Under the pieces are notes generated by a model that did not search any database, had not been told where the DNA came from, and saw only the letters and a program-made list of their open reading frames with translations. From Coleofasciculus sp. FACHB-1120 (GTDB lineage Bacteria; Cyanobacteriota; Cyanobacteriia; Cyanobacteriales; FACHB-T130): DNA of 64,000 nt. Each line of letters begins with the position of its first letter. Within the stretch, counting starts at the first letter, position 1. The stretch spans positions 1 through 64,000 of the forward strand of contig NZ_JACJTV010000023.1 of the NCBI RefSeq assembly GCF_014698845.1, read 5' to 3'. A program made the position numbers and the translations under genes. This document shows positions 10,584 through 64,000 of this stretch, piece by piece.

Positions 10584-12359
10584 CTACCGTTTATACATCC
10601 ATTTGGGCAAAATTATTTTAAGAATAAATTTGTAATCAAATTTATTTGGTTTGTATTGTAGAAATTGAAAATAGCATTTTAAAGCCTGCTTTCTACTTCT
10701 TCTTTTACCTTGAATGTCTTCTATAGCTTCCTCGGCTGCACGTTTAGCGATGTCAGCTATCCACTCTTCTAATTTTTGTTGAACCTCTCTTCTTTTTTTA
10801 ACATTAATATCCTTCAAAAGAGGTTTATTTTTGCGATAAACATATTGTACAGATGCTAAATGCTGGGCTGCATCTGAACTAGAAAGCCCCTTATTATGAA
10901 TGCGTGACTCGCTTAATAGCTCGTTGGAGTAAATTGTTCGATATTGTTTTGATAAACGAATGCGTATATCAAAATCTTCATATAATTTTAGCTTTGGATC
11001 GTGAAATCCGATTTTCTTCAAGGCTGCGTATGGTATTAATTCCATACGAAAAAGATTGCGTTTTGGGAATTCCCTAGCAAAAGTCTGGCAAAAAACCTCA
11101 CCGTGGGGAGGCACCTCTCCTTCCGCCCAAACCCCAAAATGAATGCCATCTACTGTCATATAGTAGTTGTTTGAAAAAGCGATTTGTGCATTTGGATTTT
11201 GTTGAAGCAACTTCGCTTCTTTTTCAAGTTTAGTAGGGAGATATCTGTCGTCACCATCGACGTAAGTAACATAGTCTCCCGTTACTGCTTGTAGGGCATC
11301 TATCCGAGTCTGCGCTATGCCTTGATTGCAAGTATGATAAATTGGTGTTATTAGCTCAGGATAACGAGAAGCGTAAGCAGCAATCACTTCTTGAGAACCA
11401 TCACTAGAGCAATCATCAACAATAATAACCTGACTTGGAGGCAAAGTTTGAGCCAAAACACTTTCAATTGCCTCAATTAAATACTTCTTTTGATTATAGG
11501 ATGTAATATAAACTGATATTTTTAAAGAGTTTTCCTTCAAACTAGGAAAGCTATGTACCCCACTACTATCGAAATACTCTATCCCTTTCCACTCTTCTTT
11601 AGTTGTTCGCCAAGTTGGATAAAAGCGATCCATTAAGCTTCCACACCAATAATCAAACGTTGCTCGTTCTTGCCCAGTCCATATAGTCCAGTGATAAGGC
11701 TCACGTTTAGCTACATTATGACGTTTAGCTTGTGGAATAACAGGAGTTTTTAAACCCATCCAGTCGATGATTTCGGGCAACTTTAAGTTAATTTCTTCTA
11801 AATGTAATATTCTAAAACGCTCAGCAGCGTGTTCATTTAGGTCAGCTTCAATAATCCGATTAACATAGCTCCAATACCAACAGCAACGTCCAAAACGATC
11901 CAGTTTGCTCCATTCATCAGGACTCATATCGCCACAGCGATCACCTTCAATTCGACCGTCTATCCAAGCTTGCTCAATTAGTGAGCATTCCTCATAATGG
12001 TCGTGATTTTCTGAGTGACCAGTATACCATTGCTTTTGATATGTTGATGCCACTACATCTAATCCATTACGAATTAACCATATATATTGGGCTTCAGGAA
12101 ATGCTTCTACTAAAACTGGAATAATTAGAGATAAGGTTTGATTCGATTCACAATATATAGAGTTATTAATTGTAGAATTACGAGTCTCCAATAAAATCTT
12201 TTTTATTTCTTCGGCCTTGATAACTCCATAACGATAGGCAGATGATTCTCCAATTAACTCTGGAGGTGGTTCATGTAGACATACGCATCCATTAACTATA
12301 GACAGAGTTTCAGCAATTGTTGTTGTTCCAGATCTACCTGTACTCACTATAAAAAACAT
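10584..12359 (-). CDS. Sulfotransferase-GT2 glycosyltransferase fusion
   Basis: A 591-residue fusion. Residues 1 to about 270 are a sulfotransferase domain: FFIVSTGRSGTTTIAETL is the PAPS-binding loop and YIWLIRNGLDVVAS is the 3'-phosphate motif. From about residue 279 a GT2 domain follows: ISVYITSYNQKKYLIEAIES, VIIVDDCSSDGSQ, YVDGDDRYLP at about 369. The C-terminus is Lys/Arg-rich. It shares domain order with the 975-residue neighbour but lacks the coiled coil. The most likely job is to build and sulfate a glycan for export by the adjacent ABC transporter. Confidence 0.85.
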   Translation of the reverse strand: MFFIVSTGRSGTTTIAETLSIVNGCVCLHEPPPELIGESSAYRYGVIKAEEIKKILLETRNSTINNSIYCESNQTLSLIIPVLVEAFPEAQYIWLIRNGLDVVASTYQKQWYTGHSENHDHYEECSLIEQAWIDGRIEGDRCGDMSPDEWSKLDRFGRCCWYWSYVNRIIEADLNEHAAERFRILHLEEINLKLPEIIDWMGLKTPVIPQAKRHNVAKREPYHWTIWTGQERATFDYWCGSLMDRFYPTWRTTKEEWKGIEYFDSSGVHSFPSLKENSLKISVYITSYNQKKYLIEAIESVLAQTLPPSQVIIVDDCSSDGSQEVIAAYASRYPELITPIYHTCNQGIAQTRIDALQAVTGDYVTYVDGDDRYLPTKLEKEAKLLQQNPNAQIAFSNNYYMTVDGIHFGVWAEGEVPPHGEVFCQTFAREFPKRNLFRMELIPYAALKKIGFHDPKLKLYEDFDIRIRLSKQYRTIYSNELLSESRIHNKGLSSSDAAQHLASVQYVYRKNKPLLKDINVKKRREVQQKLEEWIADIAKRAAEEAIEDIQGKRRSRKQALKCYFQFLQYKPNKFDYKFILKIILPKWMYKR

Positions 12360-60325: not shown

Positions 60326-60521
60326 GCGCTTGATTTACCCTCGCAGGGGTCTTGACGCAATTTGATCCCTTTGCTAAGTTCATGAATGAATGAACTTATT
60401 GCATAAAACTTAAACAAAAGAGTGATAAGTTCCATAGCGACCTAGAAAAAAGTGGCTTTTGCCAAAATTCTCAGGTACGCAGTCAATTTTCAGAATTAGA
60501 CCCAATTAGACGCTTCCCCCT

Positions 60522-60587
60522 ATGTTCAGCAGCCGGTTCAGCAGCAGTTTTTACTTTTATTGGTTTAGGACGGTTCACCGGCAGTGA
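60522..60587 (+). CDS. Aromatic leader peptide 1 (attenuator)
   Basis: A 21-codon ORF from ATG 60522 to TGA 60585. Eight of its 21 residues are aromatic, including an unbroken FYFYWF run at residues 10-15 (60549-60566), preceded by an FSS repeat. The last codons (60572-60581) form the 5' arm of an antiterminator. A peptide of this composition has no use except as a ribosome-stalling sensor of Phe, Tyr and Trp tRNA charging. There is no Shine-Dalgarno before it. This is the first of two such units upstream of the DAHP synthase gene. Confidence 0.85.
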   Translation: MFSSRFSSSFYFYWFRTVHRQ

Positions 60588-60621
60588 ATCCAGTGCCCGC
60601 ATTGGAACCGCCCGGTGAACC
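60572..60621 (+). promoter_or_regulatory. Antiterminator stem of attenuator 1
   Basis: GGTTCACCGG at 60572-60581 is perfectly complementary to 60612-60621 (10 bp). Inside the loop, CCAGTG/CATTGG (60590-60605) forms a smaller hairpin. The 3' arm shares AACC (60618-60621) with the 5' arm of the terminator, so the two structures exclude each other. A ribosome stopped at the aromatic codons leaves 60572 onward free, and a ribosome at the stop codon covers it. Confidence 0.75.
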
Positions 60622-60650
60622 GCAGAGTAAAATCTGCGGTTTTTTGTTTT
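60618..60650 (+). terminator. Intrinsic terminator of attenuator 1
   Basis: AACCGCAGA at 60618-60626 pairs perfectly with TCTGCGGTT at 60633-60641, with loop GTAAAA, followed by TTTTGTTTT. This is a textbook rho-independent terminator located 30 bases after the first leader peptide stop. Confidence 0.9.
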
Positions 60651-60665
60651 AAGGAGCAACTTTTC

Positions 60666-60731
60666 ATGGTGATGACCTATTTCAGTAGCTGGTTTTATGG
60701 CTTTTATTTTTGGCCCACAAGTTCCGGGTAA
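60666..60731 (+). CDS. Aromatic leader peptide 2 (attenuator)
   Basis: A 21-codon ORF from ATG 60666 to TAA 60729, preceded by AAGGAG at 60651-60656 with 9-base spacing. Nine of the 21 residues are aromatic: it reads TYFSSWFYGFYFW over residues 4-16, with 4 Phe, 3 Tyr and 2 Trp. Like leader 1 it has an FSS motif before the aromatic run, so the two may be duplicates. The end of the ORF (60721-60728) doubles as the 5' arm of an antiterminator. An alternative start is ATG 60672. Confidence 0.92.
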   Translation: MVMTYFSSWFYGFYFWPTSSG

Positions 60732-60768
60732 ATAGCGTCATGCCAATGAATCGTCTATAGCCCGGAAC
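60721..60768 (+). promoter_or_regulatory. Antiterminator stem of attenuator 2
   Basis: GTTCCGGG at 60721-60728 is perfectly complementary to CCCGGAAC at 60761-60768. The latter is also the 5' arm of the downstream terminator, so only one of the two can form. The left arm starts 8 bases after the last Trp codon (60711-60713) and overlaps the stop codon region, where a terminating ribosome would mask it. Confidence 0.85.
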
Positions 60769-60791
60769 TAGAAAAGGTTCCGGGCTTTTTT
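60759..60791 (+). terminator. Intrinsic terminator of attenuator 2
   Basis: AGCCCGGAAC at 60759-60768 pairs perfectly with GTTCCGGGCT at 60777-60786, loop TAGAAAAG, followed by TTTTT. It is a strong rho-independent terminator 27 bases after leader 2 and 51 bases before the DAHP synthase start. Confidence 0.93.
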
Positions 60792-60841
60792 GTTAACTAT
60801 CTCGCCCTACCCAATCTTTTAACTTCAAGGAGACTCGAACC

Positions 60842-61741
60842 ATGATTAACGCCAAACTTGCCTCGCAATCCCACGCCAATCACCAAACTACTGTCAAACT
60901 TTCCGAACAAGTTTCCTTCGGTGGAACGGAACTTGCAATCGTTGGGGGGCCTTGTACAGTGGAAAGCTTGGAACAGATGGAAACGGTCGCTAGCCAACTC
61001 GGCGCTGCACCCGTTCAGGCGCTGCGTGGCGGTGTCTACAAACCCCGTACCTCTCCCTATGCGTTCCAGGGAATGGGAGTGGAAGGACTCCAGATTTTGG
61101 CAGATGTGCGATCGCGTTATGGCGTACCCGTCGTCACAGAAGTGATGTCAATTGGGCAAATAGAAGCGGTTGCGACTCACGCGGATATGCTGCAAATTGG
61201 GAGCCGCAATATGCAAAACTTCGATTTACTGAAAGCTTTGGGACAAGCTGGCAAGCCAATATTGCTCAAACGTGGTCTAGCTTCTACGATTGAAGAATTT
61301 GTCATGGCGGCTGAATATATTTTAAGCCACGGCAATCCTGATGTGGTGCTGTGCGAACGGGGTATCCGCAGCTTCGATAACTATACGCGCAATGTGCTAG
61401 ATTTAGGCGCGGTAGCGGCTTTGAAGCAGATAACCCACTTGCCAGTCATTGTCGATCCGTCTCATGCCGTCGGTAAGCGGGAATTGGTGGCACCTTTGGC
61501 AAAGGCTGCGATCGCCTGTGGTGCAGATGGCTTGATTATTGAATGTCACCCAGAACCCGAAAAATCCGTTTCCGATGCTCGTCAGGCGCTTTCTTTAGAA
61601 GATATGGTGGATCTCGTTCATAGTTTAAGACCTGTAGCCGCAGCGGTTGGGCGACGTATATCCGAAGTAGGGGCGGGTTTCAGTTTAAAACCCGCCCCTA
61701 TTCATTTCTCTGCCAAGAAACCATGTGGACTTACAGCTTAA
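60842..61741 (+). CDS. aroF: 3-deoxy-7-phosphoheptulonate (DAHP) synthase, type I beta
   Basis: A 299-residue enzyme condensing phosphoenolpyruvate and erythrose-4-phosphate, the first step of the shikimate pathway. Motifs: IVGGPCTVES near residue 38, GGVYKPRTSPYAFQGMG near 62, IGSRNMQNFDLLK near 120, LCERGIRSFDN, VDPSHAVGKRELV near 207 and ECHPEPEKSVSDA near 237. It lacks an N-terminal ACT or chorismate mutase domain, so control by end products must come from expression. AAGGAG at 60827-60832 has the same 9-base spacing as leader 2. The last 25 codons derive from a palindromic repeat. Confidence 0.95.
   Translation: MINAKLASQSHANHQTTVKLSEQVSFGGTELAIVGGPCTVESLEQMETVASQLGAAPVQALRGGVYKPRTSPYAFQGMGVEGLQILADVRSRYGVPVVTEVMSIGQIEAVATHADMLQIGSRNMQNFDLLKALGQAGKPILLKRGLASTIEEFVMAAEYILSHGNPDVVLCERGIRSFDNYTRNVLDLGAVAALKQITHLPVIVDPSHAVGKRELVAPLAKAAIACGADGLIIECHPEPEKSVSDARQALSLEDMVDLVHSLRPVAAAVGRRISEVGAGFSLKPAPIHFSAKKPCGLTA
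61668..61700. repeat. 13-bp palindrome inside the 3' end of the DAHP synthase gene
   Basis: TAGGGGCGGGTTT at 61668-61680 is the exact reverse complement of 61688-61700, with a 7-base loop. This GGGGCGGGTTT palindrome is a dispersed repeat in cyanobacteria. Here it is read as codons for the C-terminal tail of the enzyme and may also act as a partial terminator. Confidence 0.85.
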
Positions 61742-62029: not shown

Positions 62030-62869
62030 TTACATCACATCTTTATTTTTTATTCTCACTCGCTCATAAAACTCCTCCATCACTTCAATAAAAGAACTAT
62101 CTTTCTTCCAAAAAGGCGGATAATCACCCTGTTTTTTAATCAAAATTGCTGGCAAACTTGCCAAAGATGCCACTTCAACCGTTTGAGGCAGTCGCTTAGT
62201 CCCCAGCCAAAATTCTCTGGGATTTATCTTCTCAGGAACCGGAACTTTTTCCAGTGGTGTATAGTAAGACGCTGAGGATTCTAAAGGGATTTCTTTTGCT
62301 GTGAGTTCAGTAGATAAAACCTCACCTAAAGGAGATTTTGCCAGTTCCGCTTGCAGTGCTTCTTTAGATAAGCCTCTGAGTTCAAACAACAGAAACGGAT
62401 TGTGGTCTAATTGGGACGCTACCAAGTAGTAGACACCCGCGATGTGTTTGCAGGGATTGGCATAATCTGGACAGGAACAGTTTGTTTTAAAATCTTTACG
62501 ATTGTGGGGGAGAAGATGCAATCCCAGGTCGGAAAAAGCATCTTCAATATTATCGGGAACTTCATTCATCAGCAGCTTAGAGACAAAGCTAGCTTTTGAT
62601 GAAAGGTGTTTAATCGCCTTCGACCAACTGGATTTATCAATCGGTGTAATTTCAATATTTATAATATAGGTCGGTTCTTTGTAAACTCCAAAATAGGGAT
62701 TGACTGAACCTTTAACAACAGCATTAATTTCATTCTGGTCAATTTTGTAGTGGAGAACTTTTCCTCCATTCGCATAAGAACGTCCTCGTCCTAATCTCGC
62801 AGGATCGGTAAAAGCTTCTAAGGCTTGAATGAAGCGTTTTCCCCACCAGGTACGGCTAAATTGAGCCAT
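62030..62869 (-). CDS. SWIM zinc-finger domain protein
   Basis: A 279-residue protein. It starts MAQFSRTWWGKRFIQALEAF, with ARLGRGRSYANGG near residue 25, the usual start of the SWIM protein partnered with SNF2 helicases. The zinc motif is NCSCPDYANPCKHIAGV near residue 130 (C-x-C-xn-C-x-H). No catalytic residues are visible. It is coupled to the helicase gene, whose stop lies 2 bases upstream of its start, so the two proteins probably form one DNA-acting complex. Confidence 0.87.
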   Translation of the reverse strand: MAQFSRTWWGKRFIQALEAFTDPARLGRGRSYANGGKVLHYKIDQNEINAVVKGSVNPYFGVYKEPTYIINIEITPIDKSSWSKAIKHLSSKASFVSKLLMNEVPDNIEDAFSDLGLHLLPHNRKDFKTNCSCPDYANPCKHIAGVYYLVASQLDHNPFLLFELRGLSKEALQAELAKSPLGEVLSTELTAKEIPLESSASYYTPLEKVPVPEKINPREFWLGTKRLPQTVEVASLASLPAILIKKQGDYPPFWKKDSSFIEVMEEFYERVRIKNKDVM

Positions 62870-62871
62870 GA

Positions 62872-64000
62872 TTACTCCAAGATTGCAGCTTTGTTAAGTG
62901 AAATCAGTTGTTTAAAGGCTTCGTTATCGAGTTCTGTCAGCCAAGCTTCATCGGTACCGACAACAACAGAAGACAGCTTTTTCTTATCTTCAATCATTTT
63001 ATCGATGCGTTCTTCCAAAGTTCCAATGGCAATAAATTTGTGAACAAATACATTTTTATTCTGACCAATCCGGAAAGCTCTATCTGTTGCCTGATCTTCG
63101 ACAGCGGGGTTCCACCAGCGGTCAAAGTGGAAAACGTGATTTGCTTTCGTTAACGTAATGCCAACGCCGCCAGCTTTGAGAGAGAGAATAAACACCGATG
63201 GTTCTGTTTCTGGATTTTGAAATTCGCTAATCATTTGTTCTCGCTTGTTGCGGTTGGTGCCTCCGTGAATGTAATAAGTGTTGTAATGGTAAGTATGTTT
63301 GAGGTATTTTTCTAGAGAGTCGCAAATTTCCTTGAATTGGCTAAAAATCAGCAAACTTTCGCCTTCAGAAATTGCTTCCTCGACCATTTCCGCCAGACGG
63401 CTGAGTTTATGCGATCGCGCGGTTGAAAATTCGCTCCCATCTTGTAAAAATTGCGCTGGATGATTGCAGATTTGTTTCAGCCTCAGCAAGGTTGACAAAA
63501 TTAACCCTTTGCGCTGAATTCCTTCGGAATCATTAATTTTTTCGCTCACATCTTTAACGACAGCTTCATAAAGAGAAGCTTGTTCTTTCGTCAAATTGCA
63601 ATATAGTTTCTGTTCAACTTTATCCGGCAGATCGTTAATAATTGATTGGTCGGTCTTGACTCGACGTAAAATAAAAGGCTCTACTAATTTCTTCAAGGTC
63701 GCAGACTTTACCCGATTATTATCTTTCTGAATTGGGATCTCAAAGCCTTTCCGAAATTGTGCTTCTTTCCCCAGGTAGCCAGGATTTAAAAAGTTAAAAA
63801 TTGACCATAAATCTAGTAACCTATTTTCTACTGGTGTTCCCGTTAGTGCCAGTCGATGGTTAGCAGTCAACTTTAAAATTGCCTTGGTTTGAGCCGCTTT
63901 AGGATTTTTGATATTTTGCGCTTCATCCACTACCACTCGATGCCACTTTAGACTATGCAAAAGTTTTTCATCTTTTCGAGTTAAAGTAAACGATGTAATC
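62872..64000 (-). CDS. SNF2-family helicase, C-terminal part (runs off window)
   Basis: The frame is open to the window end, so the visible 376 codons are the C-terminal part of a larger Swi2/Snf2 ATPase that moves along double-stranded DNA. Visible motifs: VVVDEAQNIKNP (II, DEAQ variant), LALTGTPVENRL (III), SLLIFSQFKEICDSL (IV), FILSLKAGGVGITLTKANHV (V) and DRAFRIGQNKNVFVHKFI (VI). Motifs I and Ia lie outside. The apparent start at 63960 is only an internal TTG. Confidence 0.93.
   Translation of the reverse strand, partial: ITSFTLTRKDEKLLHSLKWHRVVVDEAQNIKNPKAAQTKAILKLTANHRLALTGTPVENRLLDLWSIFNFLNPGYLGKEAQFRKGFEIPIQKDNNRVKSATLKKLVEPFILRRVKTDQSIINDLPDKVEQKLYCNLTKEQASLYEAVVKDVSEKINDSEGIQRKGLILSTLLRLKQICNHPAQFLQDGSEFSTARSHKLSRLAEMVEEAISEGESLLIFSQFKEICDSLEKYLKHTYHYNTYYIHGGTNRNKREQMISEFQNPETEPSVFILSLKAGGVGITLTKANHVFHFDRWWNPAVEDQATDRAFRIGQNKNVFVHKFIAIGTLEERIDKMIEDKKKLSSVVVGTDEAWLTELDNEAFKQLISLNKAAILE

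Follow-up and report, generated by a model that had tools for sequence, protein, structure and literature searches.

The 64,000 nucleotides analysed here (contig NZ_JACJTV010000023.1, positions 1 to 64,000; hereafter the window) come from the cyanobacterium Coleofasciculus sp. FACHB-1120. A DAHP synthase gene coding for 299 aa lies on the + strand at 60842-61741, and its product matches TIGR01361 (362.7 bits), NF006421 (399.7 bits) and PRK08673, all above cut-off. Two short ORFs precede it on the same strand. Leader peptide ORF 1 (60522-60587) runs from an ATG at 60522 to a TGA stop at 60587 and would encode MFSSRFSSSFYFYWFRTVHRQ, in which 8 of 21 residues are aromatic. Leader peptide ORF 2 (60666-60731; ATG at 60666, TAA stop at 60731) would encode MVMTYFSSWFYGFYFWPTSSG, with 9 of 21 residues aromatic. 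Leader 2 contains a second in-frame ATG at 60672 and is preceded by a Shine-Dalgarno-like site, AAGGAG, at 60651-60656 (+ strand, assigned by sequence). The gene upstream of the leaders is a transporter gene in the same direction.

Each leader is part of a module with an antiterminator and an intrinsic terminator, all on the + strand. In module 1, the antiterminator left arm (arm 1) occupies 60572-60581, inside codons 17-20 of leader 1, and pairs with the right arm (arm 2) at 60612-60621; the intrinsic terminator lies at 60618-60641, with a T run to 60646. In module 2, arm 1 (60720-60729) covers the last codons and the stop of leader 2 and pairs with arm 2 at 60760-60769, and the intrinsic terminator occupies 60759-60786, with a T run to 60791. 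In module 1, 3 nt lie between the end of arm 1 and the stop codon; in module 2, the arm extends into the stop codon.

The initial annotation had read this region as two tandem ribosome-mediated attenuators before a DAHP synthase gene. This claim is supported by computation, and so are the 21-codon leaders with 8/21 and 9/21 aromatic residues and the location of the antiterminator left arm in the 3' end of the leader ORF, in both modules. It had also stated that the terminator 5' arm is common to the antiterminator right arm. The overlap is almost complete in module 2; in module 1 it is restricted to the four bases 60618-60621.

Chance occurrence was gauged on 40 copies of the window generated by an order-1 Markov model. 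In these, short ORFs with at least 6/8 aromatics arose 0.8 times per 64 kb, and in no case did a terminator follow. The window itself contains three such ORFs, and the two with terminators are leader 1 and leader 2. The third is found on the + strand at 10646-10726, with no terminator after it. At the other side of the DAHP synthase gene, the stretch 62030-63999 (- strand) holds an SNF2-type helicase gene, partial at the window edge, whose best match is the SCO1167 family (429.7 bits, below the model cut-off of 1200). It is followed by a 279-aa protein without NCBIfam match, carrying a CxCx(n)CxH stretch which we take to resemble a SWIM finger.

Competing stems and compensatory changes

Two sets of loci were compared. 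The first comprises the genome of the window, 18 of 60 relatives and 80 named cyanobacterial contigs, 99 loci in all. The 97 loci with at least 380 nt upstream were used (two pairs are the same genome twice); the other two, L039 and L044, lie at contig ends with 47 and 102 nt upstream, respectively. The second set comprises 55 loci from other genera. Since these genomes were picked where covariance models of both modules matched, both modules are present in this set by construction. Four second-set loci (L199, L221, L234 and L240) are identical or at least 90% alike to first-set loci and were removed for the stem counts, leaving 51 non-overlapping genomes.

In the folded window sequence, the antiterminator is slightly preferred to the terminator when arm 1 is free, in module 1 (-37.6 versus -36.3 kcal/mol) as well as in module 2 (-27.7 versus -25.7 kcal/mol). 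When arm 1 is masked, the terminators form, with -20.7 and -20.5 kcal/mol, respectively. For a longer segment of module 2, the minimum free energy structure is the terminator and the centroid is the antiterminator.

The initial annotation had called for a covariation test of the stems. Compensatory changes are found in all four stems, and involve both arms of each antiterminator and both terminators listed above. After removal of near-identical rows, the first-set alignments retained 51 of 89 module 1 sequences and 62 of 95 module 2 sequences; L010, in which leader 1 stops before arm 1, was excluded from the former. In the 51 loci, antiterminator 1 pairs in 95.5% of the cells with 27 double-changed cells, and terminator 1 in 97.2% with 7. 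In the 62 loci, the figures are 93.4% and 7 for antiterminator 2, and 90.6% and 28 for terminator 2. These double-change counts were reached by none of 500 shuffles, except for one shuffle in the case of antiterminator 2. For the latter stem, controls with a slid register also gave at least as many double-changed cells, but far fewer pairs. The separate 51 genomes of the second set agree: antiterminator 1 pairs in 96.1% of the cells (35 double-changed), antiterminator 2 in 89.5% (28), terminator 1 in 100.0% (18) and terminator 2 in 91.2% (42), and no count was reached by any of 500 shuffles.

There are several weaker points. By a coarser measure, the number of pairs with any double change, 103 of 500 shuffles equalled or exceeded antiterminator 1 in the first set, and in the 51 second-set genomes antiterminator 2 and terminator 2 were matched by 181 and 168 of 500 shuffles, respectively. 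Moreover, neither the shuffles nor the partner swaps remove the relatedness of the sequences. The alignment-free test with these swaps, on 51 loci per module, is nevertheless in favour of the stems: mean scores for pairing with the own arm are 27.4 in module 1 and 22.4 in module 2, versus at most 24.3 and 20.3 in 200 partner swaps. A last weaker point is that the RNAalifold consensus chose the terminators and a local hairpin of module 1, and not the antiterminators. Such an omission can occur with mutually exclusive structures, and this may be the case here. The criterion of a mutually exclusive antiterminator and terminator is itself met, by the overlapping arms and the compensatory changes in all four stems.

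The local hairpin chosen by RNAalifold (GGUUCAC/GUGAAUC, 60572-60590, + strand, -6.9 kcal/mol) covers arm 1 and the leader 1 stop and is a candidate anti-antiterminator. The stop of leader 1 is TGA in 88 of 90 first-set and 48 of 55 second-set loci, and all three stop codons are in use in leader 2. Because TGA is nearly fixed in leader 1 and not in leader 2, the hairpin may be a conserved anti-antiterminator; this remains unproven, since no double changes were seen in its alignment. Another candidate, present in the window fold, joins AUGAC at the start of leader 2 to GUCAU 3' of the leader 2 stop. It was rejected and is not claimed: 81.6% of the cells pair, and 58 of 500 shuffles are at least as high.

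One may ask whether these elements serve attenuation at all. Theoretically, the upstream ORFs and terminators could insulate the DAHP synthase gene from the transporter gene, act on mRNA stability or translation, or form a ligand- or protein-binding RNA. The same direction of the upstream gene is consistent with this possibility, which we nevertheless regard as remote. First, the terminator arms compete with arms inside the ORFs, and the two change together. Second, no Rfam family reaches its gathering score in the window, and at E<=5 only two irrelevant subthreshold matches are found in 60330-60900; by the curated covariance models, the criterion of a T-box or other Rfam leader family is not met. 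Third, the interval from the upstream gene to leader 1 contains a -35-like box. This box belongs to a probable promoter at 60352-60380 (+ strand), with a -35 TTGACG (60352-60357), a 17-nt spacer and a poor -10-like TAAGTT (60375-60380). In 90/90 loci the 200 nt preceding leader 1 include TTGAC, and the interval from the leader 1 stop to aroF does so in just 4 of the 90. This places the likely promoter further upstream, near 60352-60380. However, its assignment is based on sequence and is weak for Coleofasciculus sp. FACHB-1120, because the -35, most often about 77 nt from the leader 1 start across loci, is at 170 nt in the window, and because a stricter promoter scan of the window found none.

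Aromatic runs and codon use

Typical first-set leaders read SYFYFWF..VHRE (leader 1) and WFYGFYFWPR.SSG (leader 2). The coding test was anchored on RNA arm 1 alone, with no demand for aromatic residues. This anchor finds module 1 in 93/97 first-set and 52/55 second-set loci, and module 2 in 70/97 and 35/55; the low recovery of module 2 is explained by the strictness of its motif. The aromatic run of module 1 has a pN/pS of 0.18 in the first set (82 distinct sequences) and 0.33 in the second, and that of module 2 has 0.29 (58 distinct sequences) and 0.43. For the codons between run and arm, the first- and second-set values are 1.37 and 1.48 in module 1 and 0.79 and 0.90 in module 2. Hence aromatic codons kept by purifying selection precede the arm, and the codons adjacent to it are neither aromatic nor under such constraint. 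The criterion of an ORF rich in end-product codons is met by composition (8/21 and 9/21) and by the pN/pS of the runs; translation itself is inferred.

The end of the run was also compared. In module 1, 82/82 distinct first-set sequences have a Trp four codons ahead of the arm's GTT; from this codon on, the aromatic content of three successive positions is 100%, 79% and 2% (94%, 83% and 12% in the second set). In module 2, it drops at the run end from 98% to 7% in the first set and from 100% to 14% in the second. A ribosome footprint extends about 11-12 nt beyond the A-site codon. With this figure, we infer that a ribosome stalled at the run end would cover just the first bases of arm 1, and that the Trp of module 1 would be about the last codon at which a stalled ribosome leaves most of the arm free. 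The criterion that arm 1 be covered at the stop and free on stalling is thus met by geometry only. In one locus, L010 (G037), a TAA closes leader 1 ahead of arm 1, and the arm sequence is still kept outside the ORF. This is a natural variant for asking how far the ribosome must travel.

Codon choice in the leaders (90-95 loci) differs from that of the downstream gene: TTT makes up 85% of Phe codons in leaders versus 29% in aroF. For Tyr, TAT accounts for 58% in leaders versus 32% in the downstream gene. This bias may reflect selection, either for slow decoding or for RNA without structure. A Shine-Dalgarno-like tetramer precedes leader 2 in 56/95 loci, and a Shine-Dalgarno-like site was seen before leader 1 in none of 90 loci.

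An arrest peptide would be another way of using such leaders. TnaC acts in this manner, with a free amino acid bound in the ribosome. By analogy, a nascent aromatic peptide could bind a free aromatic amino acid in the ribosome, without any sensing of tRNA charging. Residue order and identity are indeed well kept in the first set, and Gly or Ser stands inside run 2 in 64 of 72 first-set relatives, although in both cases the rows had been chosen by aromatic pattern. Against this, order and identity drift in other genera and the aromatic content stays, which favours codon counting; the TTT preference fits the sensing of decoding rate; and the last aromatic codons are placed such that a ribosome stalled on them would just leave arm 1 uncovered. 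We therefore consider an arrest peptide very improbable and retain attenuation by charged tRNA.

The two modules could also be tuned to different amino acids and constitute a true two-input gate. First-set runs of module 1 mostly contain a single Trp, at the end, and those of module 2 often contain two, one of them early. In contrast, the last 16 codons of ORFs chosen for at least 4/8 aromatics, tallied in 55 genomes, contain Phe and Trp in both leaders in 55/55, and Tyr in 54/55 (leader 1) and 52/55 (leader 2). Different tuning is thus unlikely. The AND gate proposed by the initial annotation is unsupported for the same reason: as far as codon content tells, the two modules share one set of amino acids as their signal, and we prefer to call them a cascade in series.

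A further suggestion, that a shared FSS motif marks a duplication of the module, is unsupported. FSS is found in only 13 of 90 leader 1 and 20 of 92 leader 2 sequences, and being rare in relatives it is poor evidence of duplication. The local alignment of module 1 with module 2 scores 34, above all of 500 mononucleotide shuffles (mean 18.5). However, duplication of one module into the other is not established, because both must encode aromatic runs, the control ignores codon structure, and FSS is rare.

Distribution and the DAHP synthase isozymes

Relatives lacking the ORFs and stems would have spoken against the attenuators, and the outcome favoured them. In the first set, both leaders are found by pattern in 88 of 97 loci, three of which were assigned by hand, and by eye in three further loci (L062, L100 and L112). 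Module 1 is absent in four of the 97 loci (L016, L019, L020 and L081) and module 2 in one (L021, the same as G032). In L110, leader 2 is frame-broken and without its usual in-frame stop. L081, where module 1 is missing, has a GC-rich hairpin just upstream of leader 2, which we take to resemble an insertion-element end.

Covariance models of both modules, built from first-set loci, were run on 388 genomes of the class; in one of the models (R1), two terminator pairs are offset by a column. Module 1 matches in 142 genomes and module 2 in 126, with one match each. Both models match in 120 of the 388, about a third of those sampled, and in 120/120 module 1 directly precedes module 2 on the same strand, with 5-176 nt between them. 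A short DAHP synthase (E <= 1e-100) is present in 142 of the 388 genomes. Among these, both models match in 117, module 1 only in 20, module 2 only in 5 and neither in none, so that at least one module stands before the gene in 142/142. The figure of 117 is probably a lower bound, because the class-wide searches used stricter filters. Ten of the 20 module-1-only genomes were read: six, all of genus g140, carry a diverged leader 2 (for example NWYYGFFY), one (G354) has a degenerate leader 2, and in three (G069, G102 and G136) no leader 2 is visible. All five module-2-only genomes were read, and two of them (G113 and G208) have a leader-1-like ORF. In four module-1-only genomes (G032, G102, G136 and G147), just 62-124 nt separate module 1 from the gene. 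Single-module lineages exist, represented by L016, L019, L020, L081, L021 (G032), G102, G136 and G147.

These losses raise the possibility that only one module works in each lineage, the other being a fixed terminator or a relic. The loss of either module in a few lineages is consistent with this. On the other hand, both modules keep their ORF, their stems and the compensatory changes, and 117/142 genomes match both models. We thus find a single working module unlikely and continue with two.

The linkage to the gene is tight. For the 60 best matches, 30 per model, the gene adjoins in all. Six genomes have a module match without a short DAHP synthase gene. One of these, G343, showed no gene in a 1,501-nt stretch. 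In another of the six, G170 (L181, C48 72600-75000), leader 1 is intact and is followed by part of module 1, which leads into what remains of a truncated and broken DAHP synthase gene; this genome, rated 100% complete, yielded no short DAHP synthase gene in intact form. A search of phages and plasmids for similar DNA gave no match. In a search for further such leaders across the genome, the aromatic-run pattern occurs at 8 places, one of which is leader 1, a count close to the 7 of the reversed-pattern control. Taken together, the ORFs, the stems with their compensatory changes, the coding constraint and the linkage to the gene are shown, by computation.

The controlled enzyme contains the catalytic domain (PF00793) and lacks the ferredoxin-like domain (PF18152), which carries feedback inhibition in related enzymes. 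A second DAHP synthase of 352 aa is encoded on contig C2 of the genome (299537-300595; L002 1225-2283). It is 52% identical to the first and has PF18152. No aromatic leader is found within 700 nt upstream of its match (about 424 nt before the ATG). The gene and a match to module 2 occur together in 122 genomes, and the distance from the end of the module to the first aligned residue never exceeds 182 nt there, which is too little for the 67-residue domain. The short enzyme is therefore likely to lack the domain in general, an inference from spacing. Of the 18 relatives having the short one, 17 also show a second DAHP synthase match. These observations are compatible with a division of labour, with RNA control for one isozyme and allostery for the other. 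This is a plausible hypothesis. With DAHP synthase downstream of the modules and the aromatic amino acids as the presumed signal, the criterion of a biosynthetic target gene is met.

A serial attenuator model and known systems

Conservation, compensatory changes, the coding signature, the geometry of the arms and the gene linkage support the core claim. It is very likely that the DAHP synthase without ferredoxin-like domain is controlled by two serial ribosome-mediated attenuators, which both sense the same set of charged aromatic tRNAs. This is a prediction by computation, with no expression or RNA-end data. The steps may be as follows. With plentiful Phe-, Tyr- and Trp-tRNA, a ribosome trailing RNA polymerase would reach the leader stop and cover arm 1, arm 2 would be free for the terminator, and transcription would end near 60646 or 60791. 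A shortage of any one of these charged tRNAs would make the ribosome stall upstream, within the aromatic run; arm 1 would then pair with arm 2, the terminator would be blocked, and the polymerase would go on. Translation, stalling, ribosome-polymerase coupling and the response itself are all inferred. Since readthrough would be required at both sites for a full transcript, basal level and induction should multiply, which would lower the basal level and widen the range. The steepness and tuning of the paired response remain inference; the steeper response from two terminators, expected by the initial annotation, has no expression data behind it.

A bolder reading may be considered, and we see no more reason to accept than to reject it: an ancient, widespread same-signal attenuator pair in cyanobacteria replaces feedback inhibition for a DAHP synthase isozyme without allosteric domain, and gives a steep two-checkpoint response to aromatic tRNA charging. 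If this were true, the conservation of the pair would imply ribosomes closely trailing RNA polymerase on the leader transcript. There is other work bearing on this point, as translation-independent mRNA localisation has been reported in cyanobacteria (Mahbub et al. 2020, via PMC7858274). The leader pair offers a natural reporter of transcription-translation coupling in these organisms. It also pairs an isozyme without regulatory domain with RNA-level control, and names leader segments for deletion or retuning when aromatic flux is to be raised in cyanobacterial hosts.

A 2016 comparative study (PMC4833913) states that reliable data on attenuation are lacking for cyanobacteria. In the open-access literature searched (open-licence papers only), we found no description of leader-peptide attenuation of a cyanobacterial DAHP synthase gene and, as the initial annotation had suspected, none of a tandem aromatic version. 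The relevant passages of PMC13378304, PMC9262611, PMC7693272 and PMC7007895 contain nothing on leader-peptide attenuation in cyanobacteria, and Naville and Gautheret 2010 (PMC2965389) do not use the terms Nostoc, Synechoc, Anabaena, cyano and aroF in their text. Attenuation of this kind is classical; the predicted same-signal serial pair, widespread in one cyanobacterial class, is new, as far as the literature searched shows. The present case, inferred by computation, has one module or both ahead of the gene in 142 of the 388 sampled genomes, and an unusual serial design.

Comparison with known systems shows both parallels and differences. The classical leader-peptide attenuators of enterobacteria are trp, pheA, his and leu. 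Leader-peptide attenuators are also present in Actinobacteria (PMC1262725). Like these, the cyanobacterial leader has an ORF with regulatory codons, a competing antiterminator and terminator, and a biosynthetic gene downstream. Unlike them, it has two complete units in series, each with all three aromatic amino acids and with arm 1 placed within the final codons of the ORF. Among predicted elements, uORFC-13-1 upstream of Acholeplasma aroF similarly combines a uORF of Phe codons and a terminator before a DAHP synthase gene; however, it is a single unit with 24 representatives, in Acholeplasma and unknown organisms only (PMC8632094). For the Phe/Tyr supraoperon of Streptococcus pneumoniae, two attenuator units for aromatic synthesis are predicted (PMC1173090, citing the Merino database), but this is a database prediction in which the attenuator type is not stated. 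Tandem riboswitches likewise place homologous units in series, and have been argued to give more 'digital' control (PMC9481103). The thrZ leader is an example of tandem T-boxes. In both classes, RNA aptamers sense the ligand or the tRNA directly, with no leader peptide. The Salmonella mgtCBR leader likewise combines a pair of leader ORFs with tandem attenuators, and the cyanobacterial locus shares this layout, two leader ORFs each with its own attenuator. The mgtCBR units, however, sense different signals, ATP and proline-tRNA, a design called a singular example in the abstract of that report (PMC3641672), whereas the cyanobacterial units should, by codon content, read the same ones.
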